From NCBI RefSeq assembly GCF_015354245.1, contig NZ_JADKYZ010000015.1, forward strand, positions 1 to 64,000: 64,000 nucleotides of DNA, written 5' to 3'. The DNA is from Diaphorobacter caeni (GTDB lineage Bacteria; Pseudomonadota; Gammaproteobacteria; Burkholderiales; Burkholderiaceae_C). Position numbers and translations under genes: made by a program. The notes under the pieces were generated by a model, which saw only the letters and a list, made by a program, of their open reading frames with translations, was not told the origin of the DNA and did not search any database. Shown one piece after another: positions 3,605 to 19,114 of the stretch (positions are counted from its first letter, which is position 1; each line of letters starts with the position of its first letter).

Positions 3605-4801
3605 ATGAAGAAGATTCTTTCCGTCTTTGGTACACGGCCTGAAGCCATCAAAATGGCGCCGTTGGTCAAGGTGCTGGATCTGACGCCAGGCATCGAGAGC
3701 TTGGTGTGCGTGACCGGTCAGCATCGTCAGATGCTGGATCAGGTGATGCAGCTGTTTCAGATCCGGGCCGATTTCGATCTCGCCGTGATGCAGCCCAACC
3801 AGTCGCTCAACGGCCTGTTCACCCGTGCGATGTCCGGCGTGGACGAGGTGATCGCCAATGTGCGTCCGGACGTGGTGCTGGTGCATGGCGACACAAGCAC
3901 CGCCTGCGCCTGCGCTCTGGCCGCCTTCCATCGGCGCACGCCCGTGGGGCATGTGGAGGCCGGGCTGCGCACCGGCAATCTCTCGATGCCGTTTCCCGAG
4001 GAAATGAACCGGCGCACCGTGGACGGCGTGAGCGAATGGATGTTCGCGCCCACCCTGACGTCCAAGGCCAATCTGCTGCGCGAGAACCTGCAGGGCCGCA
4101 TCCACGTCACCGGCAACACCGTCATCGATGCCCTCGCCTCCACCTGCGACACGCTGCAGAAGGACGCCGTCCTCGGCGCCCGCATGCGGGCCGACTATCC
4201 GTGGATCGACCCTGAACGCAAGCTGATTCTCGTGACCGGCCATCGCCGCGAGAGCTTCGGCGACGGCTTTCGCTCGATCTGCGCGGCGCTCGCCGAACTC
4301 TCGGTGCGCCGCGACGTGCAGATCGTCTACCCGGTGCACCTGAACCCGGCCGTGCGCAACGTGGTGATGTCCTCGCTCGGCCAGTGCGACCGCATCCATC
4401 TGATCGAGCCGCTCGACTATCTCGACTTCGTCTGGATGATGCAGCGCGCGCACATCATCCTCACCGATTCGGGCGGCGTGCAGGAGGAGGCTCCGTATCT
4501 CGGCAAGCCGGTGCTGGTGATGCGCGACGTGACCGAGCGCCCCGAGGCCGTTGCAGCCGGCACGGTCACCATCGTCGGCACCCGCACCGAGCGCATTCAT
4601 GCCGCCGTGACGCGCCTGCTGGACGACGCGCACTACCACGCATCCTTCGCGCGCCGCATCAACCCGTATGGTGACGGCAAGGCCTCGCAGCGCATCGTCG
4701 CGGCCCTGCTCGGCCGCAGCTTCCGCGAGTTCGGCGCTGGCGTGGACGAGAGCCCGTCCATCCCATCGGCGCACGCGGTGCCGATGCAGTCCGGCGGCTG
4801 A
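3605..4801 (+). CDS. wecB: UDP-N-acetylglucosamine 2-epimerase (non-hydrolysing)
   Basis: Interconverts UDP-GlcNAc and UDP-ManNAc in the cytoplasm and so supplies activated ManNAc. The N-terminus KKILSVFGTRPEAIKMAPL is the family signature, followed by CVTGQHRQMLDQ, VHGDTSTACACAL, HVEAGLRTG, PFPEEMNRR, TGHRRESFGDGF and DSGGVQEEAP, in the usual order for a GT-B-fold epimerase. The product is 398 residues (E. coli WecB 376), with an extra C-terminal tail. The frame is open to an ATG at 3542, but conserved sequence begins at 3605; neither start has a strong ribosome-binding site. It is first in the operon and its stop overlaps the next gene's Shine-Dalgarno. In E. coli WecB is required for the NfrA/NfrB-dependent glycan, matching this neighbourhood. 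Confidence 0.93.
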   Translation: MKKILSVFGTRPEAIKMAPLVKVLDLTPGIESLVCVTGQHRQMLDQVMQLFQIRADFDLAVMQPNQSLNGLFTRAMSGVDEVIANVRPDVVLVHGDTSTACACALAAFHRRTPVGHVEAGLRTGNLSMPFPEEMNRRTVDGVSEWMFAPTLTSKANLLRENLQGRIHVTGNTVIDALASTCDTLQKDAVLGARMRADYPWIDPERKLILVTGHRRESFGDGFRSICAALAELSVRRDVQIVYPVHLNPAVRNVVMSSLGQCDRIHLIEPLDYLDFVWMMQRAHIILTDSGGVQEEAPYLGKPVLVMRDVTERPEAVAAGTVTIVGTRTERIHAAVTRLLDDAHYHASFARRINPYGDGKASQRIVAALLGRSFREFGAGVDESPSIPSAHAVPMQSGG

Positions 4802-4811
4802 GGAGCCCACC

Positions 4812-7079
4812 ATGTCCTCGCACAAGACTTCGCCTGCCCGACATGCGCCGGTGGGGCGGATCGTCGCCCACGCAAGCACCGCCATCGCCGCCACGGCCTG
4901 GTTGCTGACCAGCGTTTGCGCGCACGCCAGCCCGCTTGCCGAAGGACTGCAGCAGCTCGGCCAGGGGCAGCGGTTCGAACAGCGCATTTCGCTCACGGCA
5001 CTGGGCGTGATGGGGCAATCGGTGAACATTCCCGCCGATTCGCTGCAGGAGTTCTACTGGCCGCAGCATGGTGCGGACAGCACACGTTCGCTGGTGATCA
5101 CGACCCCCGCGAACCAGCCCGCACCGGCCCTTGCCGTCAACGGCGCGGCCACTGCCCTGCCACCCGTCACTCCGGGCAAGCCCGACGAGCTGGTGCGCAC
5201 TGTGCTGCCGCTGGCCGGCTCCGCGCCCCTGGCGCGCATCGGCATGCAGGTGGGACCGCAGGCCCCCGCCACCTGCGACGCGAAAACCACCGGAGCGGTG
5301 GCGCTGAATCCGGAAACCTATCTGTCCTACCACGGCGCGGGCATGCCCACGCCCACGCCGAAGACCGGCACCTGGTCACAGGCCGTGGCCGCGATGCCCG
5401 AGCGGCCCTTCCTGCTGGTCGCTGCGCCTCCGTTGAGCCGTGAAACGTTCGACACCGCATGGCGCGTCGGTCTCGCGATGGCCAGGCAGGGACGGCAGGT
5501 CTCGGTGCATGCGCTGCCCAGCGTCGGCGACATCGTGGACACGCGCACGCTGAGCGTGCCGCCCGCACTCATGCCCATCAACGCCTTCGCGGCACTGAAC
5601 GATGCGAGCGAACACCACGCCATCGCGAGCGCCGCCGAAATCGGCGCGCTGCTGATGCTCGATGCGGGTGGCCTGCTCGCCGACGTCGTCGTCGTGGACG
5701 CGCATTTGCAAAGTCAGCTGGCGAGCGCGCTCGATGCGCTGCAGATGCAGATCACCGACGAAGACGCGCTCGCCGTGTTCCAGCAGTGGCGCGACAGACG
5801 CATGCCGTTGGCCCGGGCCTCCGGCGCGCTTGCCGCGCTCGTGCCGACCCCGTTCGGCGCGCACAGCGCCTGGGCCATCAAGGCCGACGGCGCGGCCAGC
5901 ATCGCGGCGCTCGACACCCACGCGCAATGGCAGCCGCTCACGGCTGTTGCCGACGGCGCCGCACGCCTTGCCAGCAGCCAGGCCCATCATCCGCTGCTGC
6001 GCGAATCCACCAACGGCCAGGCGCCACAGCAGCGGCAGCAGTTCACCGTGCAGGCCCCCCAGAACTGGGCCGCGAGCTTTGCGCTCACGCCGCCGCTGGC
6101 GTCCGGCCATACGCCGTCGCACATCCAGGTCAGCTTTCAACTGCCCGACAACGCCAGGCAGCAAAGCCCCGTCGGCGTGCTGCACTGGAACGGCATTCTG
6201 CTGGCGGCGCGCAATCTCAAGGGCTCGGGCGAGCGCGAAACGCTGGCCGCCGACATCCCCGTCTATGCCCTCAGCGCCATCAACGTGCTGCAGGTTTCGG
6301 TGAAGCAGGATGCGCCCTCCGGAGGTTGCACGCCGCCCACCGCGATACCCGCAACCGCGCTGCAGTTCGACGTGCGCTTCAACGCGGGCGCGGCGGCAGG
6401 TGCCGGCACGCAATCCACCGACAGGCCCGCGTTCGCCGACGTCATCAGCAGTCTGGGCAGAACGGCCGACATCGCCGTTCCGCAGAGCTATCTCACACAG
6501 GCGCGACGGGGTATCACGAACACCATTCAGCTGACTGCGGCCGCCAACGTCTCGCCCATCGCTTCGCGGCTCATACTGGTCGACGAAAAGAAATCCTTCG
6601 CGCCCACGCAGCCCTTCGTCGCGCTCGATGTGGACCTGCCCGGCACGCCGCGCGCCTTCGCGCTGCAGGACATGCAGGTCGCGCTGCGCGGCACGCCGAT
6701 CAAGGGCCTGCCGTGGCCACGGGCCAGTGGCGTGACGGCGGTGCAGGCGGTTCACGCCGGCGGCCAGAACGGCCTGCTGTGGTATCCGCTGGGTGCAGAG
6801 ACACGCGTGCGGCCCACGGGCCTGCTGGTCAATCACGGACGGCTCGCGCTGCTCGGCCCGGGCACCGAGGTCGCCTGGGTGAACGCCACCGGCTCCGTGG
6901 TGAGCGCCGCCGACGCCAACACGGCGGGGACCATGTACGAGTGGCGCAGTCTGTTTTCCTGGGGTGTCCCGGTGACGCTGGTGACGCTGGTCGTCTTCTT
7001 CGCGCTGCTGGTGGCCGCGGCCATCGCGGCACGCAGAGCCAAACGCAAATCGCAGGCAATGGAGGGAGCAACATCATGA
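4812..7079 (+). CDS. BcsB-like periplasmic subunit of the glycan synthase
   Basis: A 755-residue exported protein resembling BcsB, the membrane-anchored periplasmic partner of cellulose synthase that guides the nascent glycan. It has an N-terminal signal segment (AIAATAWLLTSVCAHA), a long periplasmic part of beta-rich carbohydrate-binding-like character (residues about 40-710), and one C-terminal membrane helix (SWGVPVTLVTLVVFFALLV) followed by a basic cytoplasmic tail. This is the BcsB layout and size (E. coli BcsB 779). ATG 4812 is preceded by AGGAG that overlaps the wecB stop. Its stop overlaps the nfrB-like start by four bases, implying translational coupling with the synthase. Family membership is moderately sure; binding of this particular glycan is inferred. 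Confidence 0.75.
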   Translation: MSSHKTSPARHAPVGRIVAHASTAIAATAWLLTSVCAHASPLAEGLQQLGQGQRFEQRISLTALGVMGQSVNIPADSLQEFYWPQHGADSTRSLVITTPANQPAPALAVNGAATALPPVTPGKPDELVRTVLPLAGSAPLARIGMQVGPQAPATCDAKTTGAVALNPETYLSYHGAGMPTPTPKTGTWSQAVAAMPERPFLLVAAPPLSRETFDTAWRVGLAMARQGRQVSVHALPSVGDIVDTRTLSVPPALMPINAFAALNDASEHHAIASAAEIGALLMLDAGGLLADVVVVDAHLQSQLASALDALQMQITDEDALAVFQQWRDRRMPLARASGALAALVPTPFGAHSAWAIKADGAASIAALDTHAQWQPLTAVADGAARLASSQAHHPLLRESTNGQAPQQRQQFTVQAPQNWAASFALTPPLASGHTPSHIQVSFQLPDNARQQSPVGVLHWNGILLAARNLKGSGERETLAADIPVYALSAINVLQVSVKQDAPSGGCTPPTAIPATALQFDVRFNAGAAAGAGTQSTDRPAFADVISSLGRTADIAVPQSYLTQARRGITNTIQLTAAANVSPIASRLILVDEKKSFAPTQPFVALDVDLPGTPRAFALQDMQVALRGTPIKGLPWPRASGVTAVQAVHAGGQNGLLWYPLGAETRVRPTGLLVNHGRLALLGPGTEVAWVNATGSVVSAADANTAGTMYEWRSLFSWGVPVTLVTLVVFFALLVAAAIAARRAKRKSQAMEGATS

Positions 7080-8770
7080 TGTCATCGCACTACTGGCCGT
7101 ATCTGGTCGCCGACTACTACCACTGGCTCGAGATCGCCGGTGTCGTCGTGGCCCTCGTCATCTTCATCTCCAGCGTGGACGACCTGTTCGTCGACGCGTG
7201 GTTCTGGATCCGCAAGCTGTACCGCCGCTTCTTCGTGCGCGTGCGGCATGCGCCGCTGAGCAGCGAAGCGGTGCGCGCCAAGCGCGAGCAGCCGCTGGCG
7301 ATCATGGTGCCCGCCTGGCTCGAATATGACGTCATCGCGATGATGCTCGAGAGCATGGTGAGCACGCTCGAATACAAGAACTACATGATCTTCGTGGGCA
7401 CATACCAGAACGACGAGCGCACCAAGAACGAGGTCGAGCGCATGCGCCGCCGCTATCGCCAGCTGATCCGCGTGGAGGTGCCGCACGACGGCCCCACCTG
7501 CAAGGCCGACTGCCTGAACTGGCTGGTGCAGGCCATTCTTCAGCAGAACCAGCGGCAGGAAACGCCGTTCGCGGGCCTCATCCTGCACGACAGCGAGGAC
7601 GTGCTCCACCCGCTGGAGCTCAAGTACTACAACTACCTGCTGCCCGGCGTGGACTTCATTCAGCTGCCCGTCGCATCCATCGAGCGCAACTGGTATGAAC
7701 TGGTCGCGGGCACCTACATGGACGAGTTCGCCGAATGGCACACCAAGGACCTCGTCGTGCGCGAGAGCATGTCGCACATGGTGCCTTCGGCGGGCGTGGG
7801 CACCTGCTTCTCGCGCCGCGCGATGGACGCTCTGGCGCGCCAGACGCACAACCAGCCCTTCAACACCGACACGCTGACCGAGGACTACGACATCGGCGTG
7901 CGTCTGTCGCGCATGGGCATGAAGCAGATCTTCGCCAGCTTTCCCGTGGATCACCCCACCCGCCGCCAGACCTGGTTCGGCTTCGGCCCGCTGAAGGAAG
8001 AGACTCGCAAGCTGCCGCTCGACATCCGCGAGTTCTTCCCCAACACGTTCAAGACGGCCTACCGCCAGAAGGCGCGATGGACGCTGGGCATCGGCCTGCA
8101 GGGCTGGAGGCAGGTGGGATGGAAGGGATCGCTCGCCACGAAGTACCTGCTGTTCCGCGACCGCAAGGGCCTCGTCACGTCGTTCGTGGCGATTGCGGGC
8201 TACCTGCTGCTGCTGAACTTTCTGGCGTTCTGGCTGGCGGACAAGATGGGCTGGTGGCAGACCTATTTCCCGACGCAGTTCTCTCCGCGCGGCTGGGTGG
8301 GCACGCTCATCCTGCTCAACGGCATCGCGTTGGTGCTCAGAACCGTGCAGCGCGGCTTCTTTGTCAACCACCTCTACGGCTGGGAGCATGCGCTGCTCTC
8401 CGCGCCGCGCATGGTGATCGGCAACTTCATCAACGCCGCGGCCGCAGCACGCGCCTGGAAGCTGTTCATCGTGCACATCTTCACCGGCAAGCGCCTTGCA
8501 TGGGACAAGACCATGCACGACTTCCCGTCCGCAGACCAGCTCGTGCAGCAGCGTCAGAGTCTGGGCGACCTGCTCGTGAGCTGGAAGGTCATCAACGACG
8601 AACAGCTGACCCACGCGCTGCAACGTCAGAAGCAACTGGGACTGCAGCTGGGTGAAGTGCTGATCCAGCAGCATCTGCTTGACGAGGACACCCTGCAGGA
8701 AGCCATCTCCTACCAGCTGTATGTGGAGGAGGTGTCGCGTCCAGCCCCACTCATGCCGGAGCCTGCATGA
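7076..8770 (+). CDS. nfrB: NfrB-like inner-membrane glycosyltransferase with C-terminal MshEN domain
   Basis: Processive GT2-type glycosyltransferase predicted to polymerise the glycan from the wecB product. Residues 13-35 form a membrane helix; the catalytic domain shows DSED (172-175), TEDYD (268-272) and QKARW (331-335), the donor-binding, base and Q-x-x-R-W motifs. Membrane helices follow at about 362-385 and 405-425. Residues about 494-550 form an MshEN domain with two LG...LxxxLxxQ repeats, the c-di-GMP-binding fold reported for E. coli NfrB. The usual arginine before the first LG is serine here and the conserved glycines are Lys and His, so ligand affinity may differ. At 564 residues it is shorter than E. 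coli NfrB (about 745). ATGA overlaps join it to both neighbours. Confidence 0.88.
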   Translation: MMSSHYWPYLVADYYHWLEIAGVVVALVIFISSVDDLFVDAWFWIRKLYRRFFVRVRHAPLSSEAVRAKREQPLAIMVPAWLEYDVIAMMLESMVSTLEYKNYMIFVGTYQNDERTKNEVERMRRRYRQLIRVEVPHDGPTCKADCLNWLVQAILQQNQRQETPFAGLILHDSEDVLHPLELKYYNYLLPGVDFIQLPVASIERNWYELVAGTYMDEFAEWHTKDLVVRESMSHMVPSAGVGTCFSRRAMDALARQTHNQPFNTDTLTEDYDIGVRLSRMGMKQIFASFPVDHPTRRQTWFGFGPLKEETRKLPLDIREFFPNTFKTAYRQKARWTLGIGLQGWRQVGWKGSLATKYLLFRDRKGLVTSFVAIAGYLLLLNFLAFWLADKMGWWQTYFPTQFSPRGWVGTLILLNGIALVLRTVQRGFFVNHLYGWEHALLSAPRMVIGNFINAAAAARAWKLFIVHIFTGKRLAWDKTMHDFPSADQLVQQRQSLGDLLVSWKVINDEQLTHALQRQKQLGLQLGEVLIQQHLLDEDTLQEAISYQLYVEEVSRPAPLMPEPA

Positions 8771-11535
8771 TGCGCACGTTGCTCGTCAGCGCCAATGCGG
8801 CCGTCGCGCTCACGCTGGGCGCGGGCGCAGCCCATGCCGCGCCCCATGCGGCACCCGCGACAGCGGCGGCAGCGACTGCTCCCGCACAGGCCGCAGAGCG
8901 ATCGCTCAAGGGCCAGGCCTACCGCACGGCAAGGCAAGCCTATGCGGCCTATGACGCCAAGCGCTATCCACAGGCCGAACAGCTCGCGCGTCGCGCGATC
9001 GCGTTGCGGCCCGACGTGCTGCGCTTGCGCATGCTGCTCGTCTACGCGCTGCAAAAGCAGGGCAAGATCGAGGACGCGCGCGCCGCCATCAACGAAGCGC
9101 AGGCCTATGGCCTGCGGTCCGACGAGCTGGATCAGGCCAAAAGCAATCTGCAGGCCGCTGGCGGCGCGGTGCAAAGCGACGCCTTCCGGCAGGGGTTTCC
9201 CATCGCCACGCAGGCGTTTGTGGACTACAACGCGCAGAAGTACGCGTCCGCCGCTCAGCTTGCCGAAAAGGCCTTCCGGATCGACCCATCGCAGGGCAAC
9301 TGGGCACTGCTGTGGATCACCGCGCTCGAGGCGCAGAGCAAATTGCAAGCCGCCGTGGACGCGGCCGATGCCGCCATCGCGCTCGGCGCGCCGAACCACA
9401 ATGACCTGCAGGCACGCAAACAGGCGCTGCTCAAATCCATGTCGGCAGAGCCGGCCGTCGGCGCCTATCGGGCACTGGGAGAGTTCCAGAACGACAACGC
9501 CGTCGATCTCGCCCGCAAGGCCGTCGACCTCGCGCCGGACACGCAGAGCCACCGCTTGCTGCTGCTCACCACGCTCGTGCTCGCCAACCGCATGGCCGAA
9601 GGCGAAGCGGCCGCCAGCGACGCGCTCTCGCAGGATGTGGAGGACACCAACGCGCTCGTCATGCGCGCGTATTTCCGCCAGCGCCAGCTCAAGACCGAAC
9701 AGGCCAACAAGGACTTCGACGACGCCATGGTGCAGGACTGGCTCGACGACGTGCAGCGCACCGGCATCCGCCTCGTCGCCACCGACGCTGCGCTCGCCGT
9801 CGGCGATTTCGAGCGCGCGAAGGCGCTGCTTGCGCCGCTGCCTGCGGACGACCAGCCCGTGGCGCGGCGCCTCCAGCAGATCGCGGACCGCGAAGCGCCG
9901 CCCAAGGAGCTCACCCGCGCGAGCTACCCGCCGCCCAACATGGACTGCCACCTGACGCCCTACGGCTCGGTGTGCGACATGAAGCCCGCCGACGAGGCCA
10001 ACACCGCCAGCGCCAAGGCCTATGCGGCCTACGGAAAGCAGGACTGGCAGGAGGCCATCGCCCAGGCGGAAAAGGCCGTGGAGCAGGACCCCGACAGCCC
10101 GCTGATGCAGAACCTGCTGACCATCACGCTCGCGACGGGCAACACCGCGCAGCAGTCGCGCGCGCTCGAGCGCATCAACGCCGAACTCCAGACCAAGCCC
10201 GGCGACGCCAACCTGCTGATGCAGCGCGCCTACATCCGCCAGCGGCGCAATGAATCGCTCGCGGCGCTCAAGGACTTCCAGGCCGCGCGCGCCACCGGCA
10301 AGGCGCCACCGCTCGCCATCCTCGACGAGGGCTATGCGCTCGCGCGTGTGGGCCGCAAGCCGGAGGCGGTGGCGATGTTCAAGCAGGCCATCGACCAGAG
10401 CGACGGCAACGAACTTGAGCTCACACCCGAGCAGCGCTACAACACACGAAGCGCCATCGCGGGCCTGTCGCGCGAATGGGGCGCGTCGGTGTCAACCAGC
10501 TACCGGGGCGCACGCGCTGCGGGATCGGGCCTCAACAACACGCCGATCACGACCGGCTCGGACTCGGTCTTCGGCATGGCCGATGTCTACTGGCGGCCAC
10601 CGCAGTTCCTCAACGAGGGCAATCAGATCTTCGAGGTCTACGGCCGCGTGATGAGCACGCTGCATGCGGGATCGTCGAGCGCGCCGGAACAGTCCGTCAT
10701 CGACCCCTGCACCGGCCGCCCGATACCGCTCGGTGCCAGCCGATACGACGGCGTCTCCGGCATGCCGACCACCATCGGAGCGCTGGGTGTGCGCTTCACG
10801 CCATCCACCGACTACGCCTTCTCCGTCGGTCTGGAGCGGCGCTTTCTGCTCGGATCGACAACGCGCTCGGGCTCGGTCACGCCCGCCTCGGCCGACCTGC
10901 GCTGCAAGCTCAGCGGACGCGATCCATCGCAGCCCGGAGCCCCCGTCGTCGGCAATGCGCAGTCCATCCTGTTCGACGCAAACGCGAGCCAGGGCGGATG
11001 GCTGGCCTACGCGACCTATGGCTTCTATCGCGGCACGGCGCTGCGCCATGACATGCCGAGCTGGTTCACGATGGAAGGCTACGTGCAGGGCGGCTACTAC
11101 CGCGAAGACCTGTCCGCCAATTTCTGGATGCGCGACCAGAACACCGGCACCGACGGCGGACGCCAACGCGGCAAGTACCGGCGCGACCAGTGGTTCGCCA
11201 ACGCCGAAATGCGCGTGGGCCGCAGCGTCCGCATGGACTCGGTGAGCGAGCGGCTGATGCTGTTTCCGCACTTCGTTCTCGCGGCCGACTACCAGCGCCA
11301 GAACTACCGCGCACGCGTTCCGCAGTTCAGCGAGGAGATGCGCGTGCTGGGCAACGGCTCGACCTGGTCCGCAGGCGCGGGTGCCGGCGTCAGCGCGCGC
11401 TACGCCTTCCGCGAGGATCACTACAACGCGCCGCGCTCCTACGTCGACTGGACCGTGCAGTACCGCACCAGCCTTGGCAGCGGCCAGAAGGACCGCGCCA
11501 AGGGCTGGTTCATGAGCCTCTCGCTCTGGTACTGA
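8767..11535 (+). CDS. nfrA: NfrA-like outer-membrane glycan exporter (TPR plus beta-barrel)
   Basis: A 922-residue protein with a signal peptide (cleavage likely after AAHA, residue 26), a long alpha-helical TPR region (about residues 50-560; repeated units such as AYAAYDAKRYPQAEQLARRA) and a C-terminal beta-rich region ending in the aromatic pattern SLSLWY expected of an outer-membrane barrel. This matches E. coli NfrA, the phage N4 receptor and glycan-secretion partner of NfrB, and is analogous in layout to PgaA/BcsC. It overlaps the nfrB-like stop by four bases. Expected role: passage of the polymer through the periplasm and outer membrane, and possibly exposure to phage. Confidence 0.85.
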   Translation: MMRTLLVSANAAVALTLGAGAAHAAPHAAPATAAAATAPAQAAERSLKGQAYRTARQAYAAYDAKRYPQAEQLARRAIALRPDVLRLRMLLVYALQKQGKIEDARAAINEAQAYGLRSDELDQAKSNLQAAGGAVQSDAFRQGFPIATQAFVDYNAQKYASAAQLAEKAFRIDPSQGNWALLWITALEAQSKLQAAVDAADAAIALGAPNHNDLQARKQALLKSMSAEPAVGAYRALGEFQNDNAVDLARKAVDLAPDTQSHRLLLLTTLVLANRMAEGEAAASDALSQDVEDTNALVMRAYFRQRQLKTEQANKDFDDAMVQDWLDDVQRTGIRLVATDAALAVGDFERAKALLAPLPADDQPVARRLQQIADREAPPKELTRASYPPPNMDCHLTPYGSVCDMKPADEANTASAKAYAAYGKQDWQEAIAQAEKAVEQDPDSPLMQNLLTITLATGNTAQQSRALERINAELQTKPGDANLLMQRAYIRQRRNESLAALKDFQAARATGKAPPLAILDEGYALARVGRKPEAVAMFKQAIDQSDGNELELTPEQRYNTRSAIAGLSREWGASVSTSYRGARAAGSGLNNTPITTGSDSVFGMADVYWRPPQFLNEGNQIFEVYGRVMSTLHAGSSSAPEQSVIDPCTGRPIPLGASRYDGVSGMPTTIGALGVRFTPSTDYAFSVGLERRFLLGSTTRSGSVTPASADLRCKLSGRDPSQPGAPVVGNAQSILFDANASQGGWLAYATYGFYRGTALRHDMPSWFTMEGYVQGGYYREDLSANFWMRDQNTGTDGGRQRGKYRRDQWFANAEMRVGRSVRMDSVSERLMLFPHFVLAADYQRQNYRARVPQFSEEMRVLGNGSTWSAGAGAGVSARYAFREDHYNAPRSYVDWTVQYRTSLGSGQKDRAKGWFMSLSLWY

Positions 11536-11594
11536 AACGGGCCATGGATGAGGCAACGGATGAGGCAACGGACGCACCGCAGGAGACACCACAA

Positions 11595-12629
11595 ATGAAG
11601 CAAGACACCCATCACGATGAAAGCCTGCAGGCCCCGCAGCACACGCGTCGTGCGGCGTTGCGGATGGCCGCCGTCGCCTCCGCCATGCTGCTCACCACGC
11701 AGATCGCCTGGGCGCAGAACAACGCCTCCTCACTGGTCATCAAGGGCAAGGACGGATGGCTCTTCGCGGGCTGGGGCAGCCTCACGCAGGTGGACACGGC
11801 GGGCATCGACCGCTCCGTGCAGCTCGTGGGCCGCGTCAATCAGCTGCTCAAGGAGCGCCACATCGCACTGCTGCTCGTCATGCTGCCCGACAAGGTGCAT
11901 TTCTACGCCGACAAGCTGCCCGATGGCACGAAGGTCAGCCCCGCCGTGGAGCAGCGCTATGCGCTCATCCAGGACAAGCTGCAGCGCGCCGGCGTTCGGA
12001 CCTTCGACGATTTCGCCGTGCTGAAAAAGGTGAGCGCATCGGGTGCCGACGTGTTCTACCGCACCGACCAGCACTGGACACTCGACGCCGCCGACGCGAC
12101 CGCTCAGGGCACGGCCGACGCGATCCGCCAGATCCAGCCGCAGCTCTCGGGCAGCACGGGCACGGGCACGCCGCTCGGCGCGCTCTCCAAGGAGCGGCGC
12201 TACGGCGATCTGGCCGAGATCTTCCTCACGCCCGAGGAAAAGAAGCAGGTCGGTCGCGAGGTCTATACCGTGCGCCGCCAGGCCGAGGGACAGGGCCTGC
12301 TCGACGATGCTCCCGCTCCGGTGCACGTGACCGGACACAGCATGGTCCAGCCGTATTTCGGCTATCCGCAGAAGCTCTCCAACCTGCTGGATCGTCCCGT
12401 GTCTTTGAACTGGAAACCCGGCAACATCGGCCCCTGGGTGATGCTGCTGGAATACCTCGAATCGTCCTCGTTCAAGCAGACCAGGCCGCAGGTGCTGGTC
12501 TGGCAGATGTTCGAGCCCAGCTTCAATCAAGGCCCCGATGCTGCGGGTCTGTGGGACAACGCGGCCGTCATGCCCGTCGACACATGGACGCAGCGCGTCA
12601 CCCGCGCCCTCGGGAGTGCCACGCCATGA
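11595..12629 (+). CDS. AlgJ/AlgX-like SGNH acyltransferase, first copy
   Basis: Predicted periplasmic protein (344 residues) of the alginate O-acetylation AlgJ/AlgX family. A twin-arginine-like signal (TRRAALRMAAVASAMLL, residues 18-34) precedes the mature domain. Family landmarks are KGKDGWLF (50-57), LPDK, the acidic/histidine pair in YRTDQHW (Asp158, His160) and the nucleophile in VTGHSM (Ser249). By analogy it takes an acyl group delivered across the membrane by the MBOAT protein and transfers it to the polymer. An in-frame ATG exists at 11544, but AGGAG at 11581 supports 11595. Its stop overlaps the second copy by four bases. Confidence 0.8.
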   Translation: MKQDTHHDESLQAPQHTRRAALRMAAVASAMLLTTQIAWAQNNASSLVIKGKDGWLFAGWGSLTQVDTAGIDRSVQLVGRVNQLLKERHIALLLVMLPDKVHFYADKLPDGTKVSPAVEQRYALIQDKLQRAGVRTFDDFAVLKKVSASGADVFYRTDQHWTLDAADATAQGTADAIRQIQPQLSGSTGTGTPLGALSKERRYGDLAEIFLTPEEKKQVGREVYTVRRQAEGQGLLDDAPAPVHVTGHSMVQPYFGYPQKLSNLLDRPVSLNWKPGNIGPWVMLLEYLESSSFKQTRPQVLVWQMFEPSFNQGPDAAGLWDNAAVMPVDTWTQRVTRALGSATP

Positions 12630-13783
12630 CGCCGCGCGAAAACGCCCCGCCCTCCGCCGATCCGCCCAGCCGGGGGCATCGCGCCTCCGCCCTCGTCTGG
12701 ATGGCGCTGCTGGTGGCGGGTCTCGGAGTGGGCATCTGGTCGCTCGCGCAGACCGAACTCAAACCTGAAAAATCGACGCGCGAGGCGTGGATGAACGGCA
12801 GCGCGGAGACCGCCATCAACCAGTCACTGCGCCTGCCCGGCCAGAGCTGGATCGAGATGGCAAGCGCTGCCACGCGCTACCGATTTCTGGGTGATCTTGG
12901 CGAGCAGGTCGTGCTCGGCTGCCCGCAGTGGATGTTCTATCACGACGGTCTGCGCGCGCAGCCGGGCACCGCGCCCGAGGTCGTTCAGCAGCGCCTTCAG
13001 CTGCTCGAGCACTGGCATGATCGTCTGCAGGCCCGCAACGTCAAGACGCTGGTGGTCGCCGTGCCCGACAAGGCGCGTGTCGAAAATGAATACCTGTGCG
13101 GCCGCACGATGAGCCGCAGCATGCAGGCGCGCTACGACGAACTGAGCAACGGGCTGTCCAAGCGCAGCATCCCCTTCGCCGATCTCCGCGCCACGCTGGA
13201 AAAGCAACCGGAGGACATGTACTTCCGCACCGATGTGCACATGAACGCTGCGGGCGCGCAGCGCGCAGCGCACGCCGTCGCGGCCCAAGCGATCGCGCTG
13301 CTGGGCGGCCAGCGCGGCGATCAGCGCTTCGACATCTCGGCGCCCAGCGCACCCGCGCCGCGCATGGGCGATCTGCTGGTGCTCTCGGGTCTCAAGGACG
13401 CGCCCGAGGGCTGGCGGCCCGAGATCGAATCCGCTCCTTCGCAGACGATCACCCCGGTGCGCAGCGGCGGACTGCTCGACGACACGCCGCCGCCGCGCGT
13501 GCTGCTGGCCGGCAGCTCGAACGGTCTGCGCAGCAACTTCGCCGAATGGCTGGGCAACGATCTGGGGCAGGAGGTGTGGAACCTCAGCATGGACGGCGGC
13601 CAGTTCGCCGGCGCGATGATCAAGGCGCTCAAGCAGGAGTCCAGCTGGCCGCAAAGCCTTCAGCTCGTGATCTGGGAGTTCTCTGAAAACACCTTGTCGC
13701 TGCCCTTGACCGACGACGAAAAGAAGGCGCTCAAGGAGATCACCGTGCCGGTTCTGGCAGCGGCCTCCACGCAGGGAGGGTGA
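12626..13783 (+). CDS. AlgJ/AlgX-like SGNH acyltransferase, second copy
   Basis: Second, diverged member of the same family (385 residues), anchored by an N-terminal membrane helix (residues about 22-41) instead of a cleavable signal. It has VVAVPDKARVE, the Asp203/His205 pair in YFRTDVHM and a GSS nucleophile motif (Ser297/298 in VLLAGSSNG). Its cysteine pair (C99, C158) and larger C-terminal part distinguish it from the upstream copy. Two adjacent SGNH proteins recall the AlgJ plus AlgX pair, in which one relays and the other modifies the polymer. ATGA overlap with the gene before; seven bases before the MBOAT gene. Confidence 0.78.
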   Translation: MTPRENAPPSADPPSRGHRASALVWMALLVAGLGVGIWSLAQTELKPEKSTREAWMNGSAETAINQSLRLPGQSWIEMASAATRYRFLGDLGEQVVLGCPQWMFYHDGLRAQPGTAPEVVQQRLQLLEHWHDRLQARNVKTLVVAVPDKARVENEYLCGRTMSRSMQARYDELSNGLSKRSIPFADLRATLEKQPEDMYFRTDVHMNAAGAQRAAHAVAAQAIALLGGQRGDQRFDISAPSAPAPRMGDLLVLSGLKDAPEGWRPEIESAPSQTITPVRSGGLLDDTPPPRVLLAGSSNGLRSNFAEWLGNDLGQEVWNLSMDGGQFAGAMIKALKQESSWPQSLQLVIWEFSENTLSLPLTDDEKKALKEITVPVLAAASTQGG

Positions 13784-13789
13784 CGCACC

Positions 13790-15370
13790 ATGCTGTTCAA
13801 TTCCTACCTCTTTCTGCTGCTGTTCCTGCCCATCGCGTTGATGGGCTACTACGCCGCAGGCCGCGTCAGCCTCCGGCTCGCGGCGCTCTGGCTGTGCATC
13901 TCGTCGTTCATTTTCTATGGCTGGTGGAACCCGCAGTTCGTCGCGCTGCTGTCGTGCTCCATCGTCTTCAACTACCTTGCCGGGCTGCTGATCCTGCGCT
14001 TCTCGGGATCGCCCAGAAAGCAGTTGCTGATCACCGGCGCCAGCGTGATCGTCGACCTCGCTGTGCTGTTCCACTACAAGTATTTCGCGGCGCTGTTCAA
14101 CTTCCTCAGCGAATGGGGGCTCACGCACGGCGCGATGGACACGCTGATCCTGCCGCTGGGCATCTCGTTCTTCACCTTCACGCAGATCGGCTTCCTGCTC
14201 GATTGCCGCTCGGGTCTGGTCAAGGAAAAAGGCTTTCTGAGCTACGTGCTCTTCGTGACCTTCTTCCCGCACCTGATCGCCGGCCCCATCCTGCACCACA
14301 AGGAAATGATTCCCCAGTTCGCGGACCCCGCGAACTACCGCTTCAAGGCCGAGAACCTGTCGATCGGCGGCGTGCTGTTCGTCATCGGCCTGGCCAAGAA
14401 GGTGCTGCTCGCCGACGGCATCGCGCCCTATGTGGACGCAGGCTTTGCGGCGCCCGGCGAGCTGCAGTTCTGGGGATCGTGGGCCACGAGCCTCTGCTAT
14501 GCGCTGCAGATCTACTTCGATTTCTCGGGCTACTCGGACATGGCGCTTGGCCTCGCGAAGATGTTCGGCATCGGCTTTCCGCTGAACTTCAACTCGCCCT
14601 ACAAGGCGGCGAGCATCATTGATTTCTGGGCGCGCTGGCACATCACGCTCACGCGCTATCTCACCGCCTATCTCTACTATCCCGTGGCGATGGCGGTCTC
14701 CCGCGCGCGCGAAAAACGCGGAATGAGCGTGGGCTCCAGCGCCGCCAGATCACCGGGCGGATTCGCCGCCACCATCATCGTGCCGACGCTGTTCACCATG
14801 GGCCTGGCCGGCGTGTGGCACGGCGCGGGCATGCAGTATCTGGTGTTCGGCATCTGGCACGGGCTGTGCCTGTCGATCAACCATGGCTGGCGCATCTTCG
14901 TGGTGGGCAAGAAGCCCGCCAACCAGCGCCACAGCGGACCGCTGATGCAAGTGGCCTGCGTGCTGATCACGTTCGCGGCAGTGCTGATCGGCCAGGCGTT
15001 CTTCCGCGCCGATGGCATGGGCAAGGCCTGGCAGCTCATCGAAGGCATGTTCGGCCTGCGCGGCTTCGAAGGGCTCGAATCGCTCGGGCACGCGGTGGGC
15101 ATGTCGTTCGGGGACGCATGGCGGCTCGTCATCGGCCATCACCTGCAGGGCGTGTACATCGCGCTGCTGCTCGCCATCGCCTGGTTCACGCCGAACGCAC
15201 ACCAGATTCTGGGCGGCTTCTCGCCCGCGCTGTTCAAGACATTGAAAAACCCCAGCCAACTGCTGAGCTGGCGGCCCAGCCTCGGCTGGATGGTGACCAC
15301 GCTGCTGCTGCTCGCGCTGTGCGTGGCCAACGTGCACAAGGAAACGCGTTTCCTGTATTTCCAGTTCTGA
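13790..15370 (+). CDS. algI: AlgI-like membrane-bound O-acyltransferase (MBOAT)
   Basis: Polytopic inner-membrane protein (526 residues, as AlgI about 520; DltB is nearer 400) that passes acyl groups from a cytoplasmic donor to periplasmic acyltransferases. N-terminal MLFNSYLFLLLFLPI, FHYKYFAAL, the loop SFFTFTQIGFLLD, YFDFSGYSDMALGL and FWARWHITLTRYL are AlgI/DltB hallmarks. The invariant active-site histidine is His344 in GVWHGAG, with a second WHG at 356-358. AGGGAGG precedes the ATG and overlaps the upstream stop. The next two genes encode a carrier protein and its ligase, so unlike classical AlgI, the donor is probably an acyl-carrier thioester, as for DltB. Confidence 0.92.
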   Translation: MLFNSYLFLLLFLPIALMGYYAAGRVSLRLAALWLCISSFIFYGWWNPQFVALLSCSIVFNYLAGLLILRFSGSPRKQLLITGASVIVDLAVLFHYKYFAALFNFLSEWGLTHGAMDTLILPLGISFFTFTQIGFLLDCRSGLVKEKGFLSYVLFVTFFPHLIAGPILHHKEMIPQFADPANYRFKAENLSIGGVLFVIGLAKKVLLADGIAPYVDAGFAAPGELQFWGSWATSLCYALQIYFDFSGYSDMALGLAKMFGIGFPLNFNSPYKAASIIDFWARWHITLTRYLTAYLYYPVAMAVSRAREKRGMSVGSSAARSPGGFAATIIVPTLFTMGLAGVWHGAGMQYLVFGIWHGLCLSINHGWRIFVVGKKPANQRHSGPLMQVACVLITFAAVLIGQAFFRADGMGKAWQLIEGMFGLRGFEGLESLGHAVGMSFGDAWRLVIGHHLQGVYIALLLAIAWFTPNAHQILGGFSPALFKTLKNPSQLLSWRPSLGWMVTTLLLLALCVANVHKETRFLYFQF

Positions 15371-15402: not shown

Positions 15403-15642
15403 ATGAGCATGAACGAAATCGAATCCCGCGCCGCATCGCTGATCGAGGGAATCATCATGACGCCCGTCGACTCGGAAACCCTGCTGATCGACTCCGGTCT
15501 GGTCGATTCGCTGTCCGCCGTCGACGTCACGCTCGCCGTCGAGCGCGAGTTCGGCGTGAAGATCCCGCCCTCGGAGATCGACGTGCATCTGCAATCGGTG
15601 CAGACGCTGGCGCAGTACATACAGGCGCGGGCACATGCCTGA
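15403..15642 (+). CDS. Acyl/peptidyl carrier protein (DltC-like)
   Basis: A 79-residue acidic helical protein with the phosphopantetheine attachment motif DSGLVDSLSAVDV (Ser36 is the modified serine), the correct length and helix pattern for a stand-alone carrier. AAGGAG lies seven bases before ATG 15403. It sits between the MBOAT gene and the adenylating ligase, the relation seen for DltC between DltB and DltA. Expected role: hold an acyl or aminoacyl group as a thioester for oxidation by the downstream flavoenzyme and/or transfer by the MBOAT protein. Confidence 0.9.
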   Translation: MSMNEIESRAASLIEGIIMTPVDSETLLIDSGLVDSLSAVDVTLAVEREFGVKIPPSEIDVHLQSVQTLAQYIQARAHA

Positions 15643-15679
15643 GCACGATTGACAAGAAAACGGACTGGAATTCCGTGCG

Positions 15680-15704
15680 GGAGCGCCTGCTGAGCGGGCG
15701 CTCC
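15680..15704 (+). promoter_or_regulatory. Intergenic hairpin between carrier protein and ligase genes
   Basis: GGAGCGCC (15680-15687) and GGCGCTCC (15697-15704) form a perfect 8-bp stem with a 9-base loop, 16 bases before the ligase start. There is no T tract. In an operon otherwise joined by overlaps this may be an RNA-processing or stability element setting carrier:ligase ratio. Confidence 0.55.
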
Positions 15705-15720
15705 GCGAAAGGAGAGCAAC

Positions 15721-17226
15721 ATGCGGTTTGACTTCGACACCTTCGAGTTCAGTGAACTCTCGGAACACCCCCGGCTTGCGGCGATCCACGACGCCTGCGG
15801 CCCCATGAGCTGGCAGGCGCTGCGCACCGCCGTGGACGTGTGGATGATGATGGCGACCGAGGCCGGTGCCCGCGCCGATCAGCCGCTGGTGATCACCGGC
15901 CACAAGGAGTCCGACTTCGTCGTCGCGATGCTCGGCTGCCTGCGGCTTGGCGTGCCCTTCGTTCCCATTGACGTCATCAACCCCGCCGAGCGCGTGCGTC
16001 GCATCACGGAACTCGTGCATGCGCGGCTCGTCTACGACGCGCAGACGCACCGCTTTGCCGCCACCGGACAGGAGGGCGCGGAGCTCGCCGAGAAGGGCGT
16101 GGCCTACATCATGTTCACCTCCGGCAGCACGGGCGATCCCAAGGGCGTGCAGATCGGACGCGAGAGCATGGGTCTGTTCGCAAGCTGGGTGCGCGAGTGC
16201 CTGCAGCTCGGCCACGCGCCGGTGTTCATGGACCAGATGCTCTTCAGCTTCGACTTCTCGCTGTTCAACTGGGTCGGCGCGCTGACCTGCGGCGGCACGG
16301 TGGCACTGTGCGCACGCGAGACCATCGAGGACAGCACCGCGTTCATGGACTATCTCGCGAAAAGCCGCGTGTCGATCTGGGCGTCGACGCCCTCGTTCCT
16401 GCGCCAGCAGATGCTGAGCGCCGACTTCACCGCCCAGCACCTGCCCGATCTGAAGGTCTTCGTGTTCGGCGCGGAGTCGCTCACGCCCACCATGGCCGAG
16501 GCGATCTGGGAGCGCTTTCCCGACATCCGCATCATCAACTCGTATGGCCCGACCGAAGCGACCTGCTCGACCACCTGGGTCGAGGTCGATCCCGTCATGC
16601 GCCGCGCCGCGCCGTTGCCCTTCCCCATCGGCCGTGCCAAGCCGTATGCCGACGTCTTCATCGAGGACGGCGAGATCTGCATCGCGGGCGACCATGTGAT
16701 GCGCGGCTATCTGAACCGCCCCGATCTCAACGAGACCCGCATGTTCGTGCGCAACGGCAAGCGCGGCTACCGCAGCGGCGACATCGGCGACATGGATGCC
16801 CAAGGCCTCGTCACGTTCCGCGGTCGTCGCGATGACCAGATCAAGCTGCACGGCTACCGCATCGAACTCGCCGAGGTCGATGCGGCGCTCGCGCTGCTGC
16901 CCGGCGTGCGCGCAGGCGCGGCCATCGCGCTCAAGCGGCCCGACGGCGTGATCGTGCGCATGATCGGCTTCGTCGATCCGGACCACGCGGGCCCGCCCGG
17001 CCTGCATGCGCCCGGCGCCGGGCTTCAGGACTGGAAGGCGATTCTCGCGCGCCGCGTGCCGTCCTACATGGTGCCGTCCGAGCTGCTGGTCTGCCACGGC
17101 TTTCCAATGTCGCAGACCGACAAGGCGGACCGCAAGAAGCTCGAGCAGATGTACCGCGAAAGTCGCACGCCCGCCGCCAGCCGGCCCGTGCCTCGGCCGG
17201 ATCAGCTCACGGGACAACCGGCATGA
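15721..17226 (+). CDS. DltA-like adenylating ligase loading the carrier protein
   Basis: Activates a carboxylic substrate as the adenylate and attaches it to the adjacent carrier. The 501-residue ANL enzyme shows A3 FTSGSTGDPKGVQI (132-145), STPSF (222-226), NSYGPTEAT (273-281), RSGDIGD and HGYRIEL, and the C-terminal catalytic Lys468 in TDKADRK. The sequence reads most like D-alanine:carrier ligase. Asp178 in FSFDFS, which anchors the amino group of amino-acid substrates, is kept. The pocket cysteine of DltA that discriminates D- from L-alanine is replaced by Gly250 (FVFGAESL), suggesting a different or larger substrate. A strong Shine-Dalgarno (AAAGGAGAG) precedes the ATG. Its stop overlaps the algF-like start. 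The true substrate is unknown. Confidence 0.85.
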   Translation: MRFDFDTFEFSELSEHPRLAAIHDACGPMSWQALRTAVDVWMMMATEAGARADQPLVITGHKESDFVVAMLGCLRLGVPFVPIDVINPAERVRRITELVHARLVYDAQTHRFAATGQEGAELAEKGVAYIMFTSGSTGDPKGVQIGRESMGLFASWVRECLQLGHAPVFMDQMLFSFDFSLFNWVGALTCGGTVALCARETIEDSTAFMDYLAKSRVSIWASTPSFLRQQMLSADFTAQHLPDLKVFVFGAESLTPTMAEAIWERFPDIRIINSYGPTEATCSTTWVEVDPVMRRAAPLPFPIGRAKPYADVFIEDGEICIAGDHVMRGYLNRPDLNETRMFVRNGKRGYRSGDIGDMDAQGLVTFRGRRDDQIKLHGYRIELAEVDAALALLPGVRAGAAIALKRPDGVIVRMIGFVDPDHAGPPGLHAPGAGLQDWKAILARRVPSYMVPSELLVCHGFPMSQTDKADRKKLEQMYRESRTPAASRPVPRPDQLTGQPA

Positions 17227-17939
17227 ACCGCGCCCACCGCTTTTTCCCCGGCCTCGCGAGCGCGGCAGGCTGCGCGGCGCTGACCGCCGTGGGCACGCTG
17301 GCCATGCTGAGCACGCCCGAAGCGCTGGCCGAGGGCGCCTTCGGGCAGCTCTACGCCTCGCGTCCACCCGCTGGCTCGTCGTTCGTTCGCGTGATCAATC
17401 CGGGAACGGCACCGCTGCGCGTGAAGATCGCCAGCGGACCCGAGCAGACGCTCAAGGGCGACGTCGTCGCTTCAAGCTACGCCATCGTCAAGGGGCAGAC
17501 CGAGTTCGTCGTGACGATCAACGGCAAGGCCTCGGCACCGCTCACGGTCGCGCCCGACAGCTTCACCTCGCTGATGCCTTCGTCGCCAACCAATGCCACG
17601 CAGCTCAAGGTGCTCGACGACTCCGCCGGCGCACCGCAGGATGCGTTGAAGGCCGGACTGCGCTTCTACAACCTCAGCGCGGACTGCAACGAGGGCGCCG
17701 TGGGCATCGCGCCTGCAGGCACGCCGCTGTTCAGCCCTGTCGCCTACGGTGCCACCACGGCGCGCGCCATCAATCCGGTGAAAGCCAGGCTGGTGGGCCG
17801 CTGCGCGCAGGTGGACACCGCCACGCTCGAGTTGCCCGCGCTGCAGCCTGGCGAGCATTTCAGCCTGTTCCTCATGGGCAGCGCGAGTCAACCCGTGCTG
17901 CGCGGCCAGCGCAGCTCAACCGATGGGTACAAACCGTGA
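17223..17939 (+). CDS. algF: AlgF-like periplasmic acylation protein
   Basis: A 238-residue exported protein resembling AlgF, the adaptor needed for alginate O-acetylation. The N-terminal 38 residues form a signal peptide (GCAALTAVGTLAMLS...ALAEG). The mature part begins QLYASRPPAGSSFVRVINPG, the AlgF signature, and continues with small beta-rich repeats (LRVKIASGPEQTL, FSLFLMGSASQPV). It probably links the MBOAT and SGNH proteins in the periplasm. It overlaps the ligase gene by four bases, and its own stop overlaps a possible GTG start of the next gene, so it is embedded in the loading module. Confidence 0.83.
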   Translation: MNRAHRFFPGLASAAGCAALTAVGTLAMLSTPEALAEGAFGQLYASRPPAGSSFVRVINPGTAPLRVKIASGPEQTLKGDVVASSYAIVKGQTEFVVTINGKASAPLTVAPDSFTSLMPSSPTNATQLKVLDDSAGAPQDALKAGLRFYNLSADCNEGAVGIAPAGTPLFSPVAYGATTARAINPVKARLVGRCAQVDTATLELPALQPGEHFSLFLMGSASQPVLRGQRSSTDGYKP

Positions 17940-17983
17940 CCAAGAACCCGCCCGACCCTGCCTTGGAATCCAAGCGACCGCCG

Positions 17984-19114
17984 ATGAACCGCACCGTTCT
18001 GCGTGAAGACCACCTGCTGCTCCAGACGCAGGTGGAGCGCTTCGTCAAACAGGAAATCCTGCCCTTCTACGCACAGTGGGAAGAGCTCGGCGTGACGCCT
18101 CGCGGACTGTGGCGCAAGGCCGGTGCGAACGGGCTGCTCAACTGCGCGATCCCCGCGCCCTGGGGGCAAGGCGGAGATTTCGGTCACGCGACCGTGGTGC
18201 TCGAAACGCTGGCGCGCAACAACTGCCTGGGCATCGGCTTCTCGATCCACTCCGACATGGTGGCCCCGTACATCCTGCATCTGGGCACGCGCGAGCAGAA
18301 GGACCGCTGGCTCACGCGCATGACCGACGGCGAATGCATCGGCGCCATCGCGATGACCGAGCCCGATGCGGGCAGCGATCTCAAGGCCGTGCGCACCCGC
18401 GCGCGGCGCGAGCGCGGCCACTATGTGCTCAATGGCACCAAGACCTTCATCACCAACGGCACGAACGCCGACATCGTGATCGTCCTGGCCAGCACCGCGC
18501 CGGACCTCGGTGCGCGCGGGCTCTCGCTGTTCGTGGTCGAACGCGGCATGCCCGGCTTCTCGCATGGCGTGCCGCTCAGAAAGATCGGCCAGCATGCACA
18601 GGACACGAGTGAACTGTTCTTTGACGATGTCAAGATACCGCTCGAAAACCGGCTCGGCGAAGAGAACGCGGCCTTCGAGCATGCAAGCGTCGAGCTGGCG
18701 CAGGAGCGCCTCGCGATCGCGCTGCGCGCCGGAGCGAATCTTGAAGGCATGATCGATGCGACCGCGCTGTACGTGAAGCAACGCAAGGCCTTCGGCCGCC
18801 GCGTCGTCGATTTCCAGAACGCGCGCTTCAAGCTCGCCGACGCCATCGCCCAGACCACCATGCTGCGCACGTTTCTCGACGATTGCCTTGGCAAGCACAT
18901 GCGCGGTGAGCTCGATCCCGTCACCGCCGCCATCGCCAAGCTCAACGCCACCGAGATGCAGAACAGGCAGCTCGACGAGCTGCTGCAGCTCTTCGGCGGC
19001 TACGGGTACATGGCTGACTACGGCATCGGCCGCGCGTGGACCGACGCACGCGCGCTGCGGATCCTGGGCGGCACCAGCGAGATCATGCGCGACATCATCG
19101 GCAAGCGCATCTGA
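17984..19114 (+). CDS. Acyl-CoA dehydrogenase-like flavoprotein of the glycan operon
   Basis: FAD-dependent alpha,beta-dehydrogenase fold (376 residues): MTEPDAGSDL (124-133), TKTFITNGTNADI (152-164), RKAFGRRVVDFQ, LFGGYGYMADY and GGTSEIMRDII. The usual MCAD-position base is glycine (GGTSE), while Glu241 in AQERLAIALRAG aligns with the catalytic glutamate of isovaleryl-/long-chain-type enzymes, so it should be active. This is also the position used by prolyl-carrier oxidases such as PltE/RedW. I chose ATG 17984; an in-frame GTG at 17936 overlaps the algF-like stop as GTGA and would add 16 residues. Being in this operon, it may act on the carrier-bound group rather than in fatty-acid breakdown; that is inference. 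Confidence 0.82.
   Translation: MNRTVLREDHLLLQTQVERFVKQEILPFYAQWEELGVTPRGLWRKAGANGLLNCAIPAPWGQGGDFGHATVVLETLARNNCLGIGFSIHSDMVAPYILHLGTREQKDRWLTRMTDGECIGAIAMTEPDAGSDLKAVRTRARRERGHYVLNGTKTFITNGTNADIVIVLASTAPDLGARGLSLFVVERGMPGFSHGVPLRKIGQHAQDTSELFFDDVKIPLENRLGEENAAFEHASVELAQERLAIALRAGANLEGMIDATALYVKQRKAFGRRVVDFQNARFKLADAIAQTTMLRTFLDDCLGKHMRGELDPVTAAIAKLNATEMQNRQLDELLQLFGGYGYMADYGIGRAWTDARALRILGGTSEIMRDIIGKRI

Follow-up and report, generated by a model that had tools for sequence, protein, structure and literature searches.

A predicted Nfr-type exopolysaccharide cluster of Diaphorobacter caeni that joins alginate-type acylation proteins to a DltA-like carrier-loading module

According to the relevant sections of two 2021 papers (PMC8669472 and PMC8669469), Nfr is an exopolysaccharide synthase that is controlled by cyclic di-GMP (c-di-GMP), depends on WecB, and serves as the receptor of phage N4. 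In Escherichia coli, a polymer based on N-acetylmannosamine (ManNAc) has been postulated from the wecB dependence (PMC8669472). Two clusters with additional genes are described in the same sections: the nfrA/nfrB/wecB cluster of Achromobacter xylosoxidans includes homologs of BcsB and of periplasmic O-acetyltransferases (PMC8669472), and the nfr cluster of Simplicispira suum carries an insertion resembling alginate acetyltransferases (PMC8669469). For both clusters, these sections speak of acetyltransferases only and make no mention of a carrier protein, a ligase, or a dehydrogenase. Among the membrane-bound O-acyltransferases (MBOATs), PatA acetylates a tyrosine in its own C-terminal FXYXXF motif, and the resulting acetyl-tyrosine peptide feeds an SGNH partner; MBOAT/SGNH pathways other than Dlt are described, in the portions of PMC12148441 cited here, as having no similar carrier protein. 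Here, we analyze a 64,000-nucleotide stretch of Diaphorobacter caeni DNA (contig NZ_JADKYZ010000015.1, positions 1 to 64,000; referred to below as the window), in which genes related to the Nfr, alginate, and Dlt systems stand in a single block.

We assign a probability of about 0.6 to the reading that this block encodes an Nfr-type exopolysaccharide system that responds to c-di-GMP and in which the polymer receives O-linked acyl groups derived from an amino acid, not acetyl groups. The predicted features of the block are as follows.

3605 to 4801 (+): wecB/nfrC-like UDP-GlcNAc 2-epimerase, for supply of UDP-ManNAc (Pfam Epimerase_2, 388 bits)
4812 to 7079 (+): BcsB-like synthase partner (AlphaFold model and Foldseek matches in PDB)
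7076 to 8770 (+): nfrB, processive GT2 polymer synthase with a c-di-GMP (MshE-type) motif (NF012033, 911 bits, cutoff 537; NF053729, 54 bits, cutoff 38)
8767 to 11535 (+): nfrA, outer-membrane exporter with TPR and a C-terminal NfrA domain (Pfam NfrA_C, TPR)
11544 to 12629 (+): AlgX/AlgJ-like SGNH acyltransferase a (Pfam ALGX, 223 bits)
12626 to 13783 (+): AlgX/AlgJ-like SGNH acyltransferase b (Pfam ALGX, 226 bits)
13790 to 15370 (+): AlgI/DltB-like MBOAT with the C-terminal acyl-shuttle motif FLYFQF; His344, Tyr523 (Pfam MBOAT)
15403 to 15642 (+): acyl/aminoacyl carrier protein, phosphopantetheine site DSL (Pfam PP-binding)
15721 to 17226 (+): DltA-like amino-acid:carrier ligase with an altered substrate pocket (PRK04813, 330 bits, below the cutoff of 476; pocket analysis)
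17223 to 17939 (+): AlgF-like periplasmic protein (Pfam AlgF, 44.8 bits, cutoff 34.4)
17984 to 19114 (+): flavoenzyme resembling acyl-CoA dehydrogenases (ACADs) of the long-chain (LCAD) type, candidate catalytic Glu241 (Pfam Acyl-CoA_dh N/M/1)
19146 to 20174 (-): DUF4434 protein, YbcH homolog, lipoprotein-like with invariant Cys35, TIM barrel, possible glycan hydrolase (Pfam DUF4434, 186 bits)

The eleven open frames between 3605 and 19114 all lie on the plus strand, and 10 of them have family matches, in agreement with the first-pass annotation, which had listed eleven same-strand genes of Nfr, AlgI/X/F, and Dlt-like types. Its description of the genes as mostly joined by 4-base overlaps was too strong: such overlaps occur at 4 of the 10 junctions (bcsB-nfrB, nfrB-nfrA, algX-algX, and ligase-algF), and the remaining 6 are gaps of 6 to 78 bases. 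The convergent DUF4434 gene is predicted to belong to the Nfr system as well, because nfrBA of E. coli adjoins ybcH and YbcH is a DUF4434 protein; we therefore count it as the twelfth gene of the block. A scan for promoters and terminators found no excess over chance, with 2 promoter-like sites against 1.7 expected and 10 terminator-like sites against 10.9.

Homology and conserved residues point to a synthase, an exporter, an epimerase, a carrier, a ligase, an MBOAT with a shuttle tyrosine, and two SGNH transferases. The window NfrB (564 amino acids, against 745 in E. coli) is 42% identical to the E. coli protein, scores 579 bits with the longer E. coli-type model NF008411 (below the cutoff of 1170), and has the active-site motifs HDSED, TED, and QxxRW, which are kept in all 66 aligned rows. 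Its known companions, the NfrA exporter, WecB, and a YbcH-type protein, are all found alongside; NfrA matches Pfam NfrA_C, yet its BLASTP match to E. coli NfrA is weak (34 bits). AlgF and both ALGX-type SGNH proteins exceed the Pfam cutoffs, and neither SGNH protein matches any DltD model in Pfam. The candidate catalytic Asp and His are present in 66 of 66 rows for both of these proteins, and the Ser in 65 rows for protein a and in 66 for protein b. The only PDB matches of the MBOAT are two DltB sequences (best E value, 3.5e-28); His344 and the FLYFQF motif, which is of the FXYXXF type, are each present in 64 of the 66 rows; the motif is missing from one row that is cut short (L147) and from one that leaves the frame (L146). 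In the latter, from Burkholderia sp. lig30 (L146:10001-11576), the MBOAT frame is lost before the C-terminal motif, through either a broken gene or a sequencing slip. The Asp-Ser pair with the phosphopantetheine serine of the carrier is present in 63 of 63 rows. The shuttle motif is thus, by the predicted protein sequence, fused to the window MBOAT, which ends in FLYFQF yet adjoins a carrier gene, so that it would combine the PatA/PatB-type and Dlt schemes.

Gene context was surveyed in a sample consisting of the best 80 of 510 relatives obtained in a genome scan with an MBOAT alignment, and the content of these 80 loci was determined by tblastn with the window proteins. The window MBOAT is 89% identical to that of Diaphorobacter aerolatus, another member of the Comamonadaceae in which the whole cluster is present (L090), and the NfrB tree also places the two close together. 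An nfrB gene is present in 62 of the 80 MBOAT-anchored loci; the other 18 have none in the DNA covered. In 35 of the 62 nfrB loci, from Burkholderiales, Pseudomonas, and Lysobacteraceae, it is accompanied by the ligase, the carrier, and the ACAD (type A); all twelve genes were matched in 33 of these, and in the other two wecB alone is missing from the DNA covered. Because these 35 loci carry MBOAT, carrier, ligase, and dehydrogenase together, the grouping is, judging by gene content, a conserved unit and not a product of chance. Type B, with 14 loci from Acidovorax, Paracidovorax, Pseudacidovorax, Simplicispira, Xylophilus, Ideonella, and one member of Burkholderiaceae, has the ligase and carrier on the opposite strand together with another flavoprotein of the ACAD superfamily, and type C (6 loci, Paraburkholderia and Burkholderia) has the ligase and carrier with no match to either flavoenzyme. 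Four Pandoraea loci contain the ligase and carrier without the ACAD. The last three show no ligase match: two (L132 and L147) stop short of the expected position, and the third, L142, from an Alcaligenaceae bacterium, has an FkbH gene (311 bits, cutoff 147) and a carrier gene just before the MBOAT (L142:7761-9948). FkbH enzymes load glyceryl groups on carriers, and the presence of FkbH plus carrier in place of ligase plus carrier suggests a glyceryl-type decoration of the same polymer. In total, ligase and carrier are found in 59 of the 62 nfrB loci and a carrier-loading module in all 60 that are testable, L142 included, which bears out the earlier view of the Nfr synthase, acylation set, and loading set as one unit. 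In Ideonella sp. B508-1 (L134:1-12288), the half from wecB to nfrA has the opposite orientation to the half with the acylation genes.

These data bear on an alternative in which the polymer would undergo ordinary O-acetylation from acetyl-CoA, as in alginate, while the carrier, ligase, and dehydrogenase serve some other, cotranscribed product. The AlgX/AlgF/MBOAT set does resemble the alginate set, and the relevant sections of PMC8669472 and PMC8669469 read the extra genes as acetylation genes. However, a loading module of one of three kinds accompanies this MBOAT in every testable nfr locus, and the loading enzyme has been exchanged without loss of the MBOAT, so we regard this alternative as quite improbable; the linked carrier and ligase themselves argue against an acetyl-CoA donor. 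Conversely, the carrier-fed MBOAT of our preferred reading gains support because the loading enzyme is swapped (two ligase types and FkbH) while the carrier, MBOAT, and AlgX proteins stay. The ten Achromobacter loci of the survey with enough DNA belong to type A and that of Simplicispira hankyongi belongs to type B; judged from these other loci of the two genera, the published Achromobacter and Simplicispira clusters are probably the same as those surveyed here.

Acylation and loading genes that occur apart from the synthase, which would speak against such a unit, were seen for distant relatives only. MBOATs linked to nfr are 53 to 89% identical to that of the window and keep the loading module in all testable loci, whereas those that occur without nfr are 36 to 56% identical; a further one (L108, 67% identical) lies on a 3.3-kb piece that is too short to judge the presence of nfr. 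Ligases of 38 to 53% identity come from non-nfr loci, each with a carrier, another MBOAT, or both. As a control, 399 genomes sampled from the same order were searched, and NfrB (E value of ≤1e-100) was found in 16 of them. Four of these (G000, G280, G285, and G020) carry the MBOAT and ligase; the other 12 gave no match to the MBOAT, ligase, or carrier in the stretches examined, two of which (L203 and L211) are cut by contig ends at nfrB. The decoration genes are therefore, on this sample, an optional addition to Nfr. Ligase relatives (E value of ≤1e-70) were found in 9 of the 399 genomes, four times in nfr clusters; in the five other genomes, and in a second copy in G285, they belong to loci without nfr in which a carrier, another MBOAT, or both were matched.

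Carriers also accompany MBOATs outside nfr loci. Among 40 non-nfr MBOAT loci (from 44 after L108 and the nfr loci L132, L142, and L147 were set aside), 9 have FkbH and a carrier beside the MBOAT (L150, L151, L160, L162, L165, L167, L168, L169, and L037), 6 have a carrier without FkbH within 3 kb of it, and 25 have neither with the probes used, apart from a weak carrier match 8 kb away in L051. Carrier-linked MBOATs are therefore a wider kind than Dlt. A literature search for FkbH with MBOATs turned up only work on cyanobacterial natural products.

The ligase is, by score, closest to DltA among the NCBIfam models and, per domain, in PDB, and the MBOAT is closest to DltB; none of the curated Dlt cutoffs is reached (DltA, 330 and 329 bits against 476 and 560; DltB, 177 against 375; DltC, 26 and 20.5 against 68 and 52). 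Plain D-alanylation, by a Dlt/dra-like system moved to an exopolysaccharide and with the dehydrogenase incidental, would agree with these similarities and with the DltA-type pocket that is kept by the ligases of types B and C and by non-nfr relatives. The window-type pocket, which is found in 43 of 64 ligase rows (the window, L033, L034, the 35 type A loci, the four Pandoraea loci, and L108), speaks against it. The other 21 rows (types B and C, with L035 and L133 being the same locus) share the DltA-like pocket, as do six non-nfr ligases that were examined, one of which (L199) has Ser for Thr at one position. A comparison of 29 type A rows and 23 other rows, from which near-copies, L034, L108, and a few more had been removed, gave 20 group-specific columns out of 478, in which at least 95% of the type A rows had a single residue that no row of the other set contained. 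These 20 columns include six of the eight pocket positions: 236, 239, 278, 301, 330, and 331 (hypergeometric P = 6.4e-8, a value that measures concentration in the pocket and not the number of events, since the rows are related). At the two others (299 and 322) the consensus differs and the residues overlap between the groups, so that the consensus differs at all eight. The positions, in what we take to be gramicidin-synthetase numbering, were mapped by motif and not on a structure. At position 301, all 29 type A rows, including the window, have Gly (Gly250), and all 23 others have Cys, the residue expected there in a D-alanine-type pocket. Asp178 and Lys468, which are presumably the ligand of the amino group and the catalytic lysine of such enzymes, are kept in 52 of 52 rows; we likewise take as given the roles of Cys301, Asp235, and Lys517 in DltA.

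With a changed pocket and with the amino-group and catalytic residues kept, the substrate of the window ligase would be an alpha-amino acid other than D-alanine. The altered pocket and the retention of the dehydrogenase in 38 of the 42 testable loci that have it make D-alanylation unlikely for the window-type clusters; for types B and C and the non-nfr relatives, D-alanine is a good guess. Two non-nfr loci (L196:9715-13925 and L197:9442-13526) combine a ligase, an MBOAT, and a carrier, their ligases being 51 to 52% identical to that of the window with a DltA-like pocket, and are probably Dlt/dra-like. In a genome of the window's genus (G147; L034:7257-8665, minus strand), the ligase lies in two overlapping frames and may be broken or affected by a sequencing slip. 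An attempt to name the amino acid by its pocket code gave no match to the codes considered.

The dehydrogenase has all three ACAD domains, and Glu241, the candidate catalytic residue at what we take to be the helix-G type position, is present in 36 of 36 type A rows. The enzyme is absent from all 21 ligase rows with the DltA-like pocket and is, on the present sampling, tied to the type A ligase, yet dispensable. In PDB, it matches mitochondrial LCAD best (338 bits; a prolyl-ACP dehydrogenase scores 159), and a 60%-identical paralog in the same genome lies beside genes whose translations, inspected by eye, resemble thiolase, enoyl-CoA hydratase, and CoA ligase. By score and by paralog context, the dehydrogenase thus appears closest to acyl-CoA enzymes, and the cluster enzyme was probably recruited from acyl-CoA metabolism. 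Trios of a stand-alone ligase, a carrier, and a dehydrogenase are known to make pyrrolyl carriers, and one might imagine that proline is loaded and oxidized to pyrrole-2-carbonyl, as in the prodigiosin and clorobiocin pathways, to yield pyrrole esters on the polymer. An aromatic product would presumably be stable as an ester, and the RedW and PigA models do match the dehydrogenase, though below their cutoffs (205 bits against 650 and 186 against 500); LCAD is far closer, and the pocket residues are unlike the proline codes considered, which leaves pyrrole formation a very improbable outcome. All 14 type B loci encode their own flavoprotein next to the ligase and carrier (e.g., L035:15540-16712, minus strand). 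This flavoprotein lacks the catalytic Glu in all 13 aligned rows (about 25% identity; L138, split in two matches, was omitted) and is therefore not an ortholog of the window enzyme; it may be a monooxygenase.

In the scheme that we propose, WecB would make UDP-ManNAc, NfrB and the BcsB-like protein would polymerize it, and NfrA would export the product (WecB, NfrB, and NfrA are assigned by homology and the BcsB-like protein by its fold), with the DUF4434 protein perhaps trimming the polymer, as a guess from its fold. The DltA-like ligase would adenylate an alpha-amino acid other than D-alanine and load it on the carrier, the activity being suggested by homology and the change of substrate by the pocket; in most lineages, the LCAD-type flavoenzyme would then oxidize the alpha,beta carbons of the aminoacyl group on the carrier. 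By analogy with PatA/PatB and Dlt, the MBOAT would move the group across the membrane to its own Tyr523 in FLYFQF, and the two AlgX-like SGNH proteins would transfer it, with the help of AlgF, to polymer hydroxyls. Linkage and cassette exchange suggest a carrier that feeds the MBOAT, linkage suggests action of the ACAD on the loaded carrier, and the operon suggests the Nfr polymer as the acceptor. The path from carrier to MBOAT to polymer, proposed in the first-pass annotation, fits the locus survey and the conserved motifs.

A more specific version, to which we give somewhat less than even odds, is that the polymer carries esters of an oxidized (alpha,beta-dehydro or aromatized) amino acid made on the dedicated carrier by the ligase and the ACAD relative, a kind of surface-polysaccharide modification for which our searches gave no described counterpart. 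The cluster would then be one member of a family in which interchangeable loading cassettes put different substituents on one and the same Nfr polymer: the altered-pocket ligase with the LCAD-type enzyme, the DltA-pocket ligase with the second flavoprotein, the ligase alone, and FkbH. Several observations weigh against the proposed scheme as a whole. In addition to the relatedness of the rows, the motif-based mapping of the pocket, the failure of the pocket code to identify an amino acid, and the affinity of the dehydrogenase to acyl-CoA enzymes, linear gramicidin synthase equals DltA in whole-chain PDB scores of the ligase (245 bits each; the single gramicidin domains score lower, 112 and 116). 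Moreover, the four Pandoraea loci have retained the altered ligase but no dehydrogenase. An NfrB tree of 51 rows, from which near-copies had been removed, groups these four as a single branch inside type A (support, 99/95), next to Pandoraea horticolens, which has the dehydrogenase, and no ortholog was found elsewhere in the four genomes, one of them a metagenome assembly (best identity, 35 to 36%, versus 72% in P. horticolens). The pattern is most simply explained by one loss of the dehydrogenase, and oxidation is therefore not needed for the pathway to persist.

Two proteins of the block were assigned with the help of structure models. Gene 2 (4812 to 7079) gave no match in Pfam or NCBIfam; the 22 best Foldseek matches in PDB of its AlphaFold model (predicted local distance difference test score [pLDDT], 67) are all BcsB or cellulose synthase entries (best E value, 1.4e-18), and it appears to be BcsB-like, with modest query-normalized TM-scores of 0.31 to 0.39. 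The modeled DUF4434 protein is a TIM barrel that resembles several glycosidase families, including GH99 and GH5. Because sugar epimerases and others were matched too, hydrolase activity is only a guess. Glu166, Asp235, and Glu267, invariant in the alignment, are candidate catalytic acids; E. coli YbcH is called a putative scaffold in the relevant section of PMC8669469, and a literature search on DUF4434 turned up nothing. Elsewhere in the window, the G+C content drops from about 0.66 to 0.54 to 0.61 across positions 33000 to 58000, and at about 41 to 57 kb the translations resemble, by eye, an aromatic/CoA-ester catabolic cluster with tripartite-transporter binding proteins.

Phages use Nfr polymers as receptors. 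If the donor is an aminoacyl carrier, the polymer would bear amino-acid-derived, possibly charged groups, which could alter phage adsorption, adhesion, and resistance to cationic peptides, and the mechanism of a carrier-fed MBOAT, known from the Dlt system of Gram-positive bacteria, would extend to Gram-negative exopolysaccharides. Because four cassette types occur in different species, comparing them could help to decode how the substrate is chosen.

The Nfr/alginate-type hybrid is already known from the Achromobacter xylosoxidans (PMC8669472) and Simplicispira suum (PMC8669469) clusters as given in the sections cited above, which contradict the initial statement that known Nfr systems have no decoration genes. 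Of the claim that the combination is undescribed, what stands is the carrier-loading side: literature searches on nfr in connection with exopolysaccharides or a carrier, and on MBOATs in connection with both, judged by titles and the openings of abstracts, did not find a description of a changed ligase and a flavoenzyme acting for an exopolysaccharide.

Compared with the closest systems, the window shares NfrB, NfrA, WecB, and DUF4434/YbcH with the E. coli Nfr/NGR system (nfrBA-ybcH and wecB). In E. coli K-12, nfrB, nfrA, and ybcH lie together with no decoration genes beside nfr, whereas the window adds the BcsB-like protein, the AlgI/X/F-type acylation set, and the carrier-loading module. With alginate O-acetylation (AlgI, AlgJ, AlgX, and AlgF), it has in common the MBOAT with a C-terminal shuttle motif, the two AlgX/J-like proteins, and AlgF, but it has its own carrier and ligase where the alginate system relies on a CoA donor. 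The Dlt system (DltABCDX) and, on what we take to be its gene content, Bordetella dra have the same carrier, DltA-like ligase, DltB-like MBOAT, and SGNH partners. A function of dra in D-alanine modification is described in the cited portion of PMC4448142. The window differs from both in the shuttle motif fused to the MBOAT, in partners of the ALGX and not the DltD type, in the altered ligase pocket, and in the presence of a flavoenzyme and an exopolysaccharide synthase in the operon.

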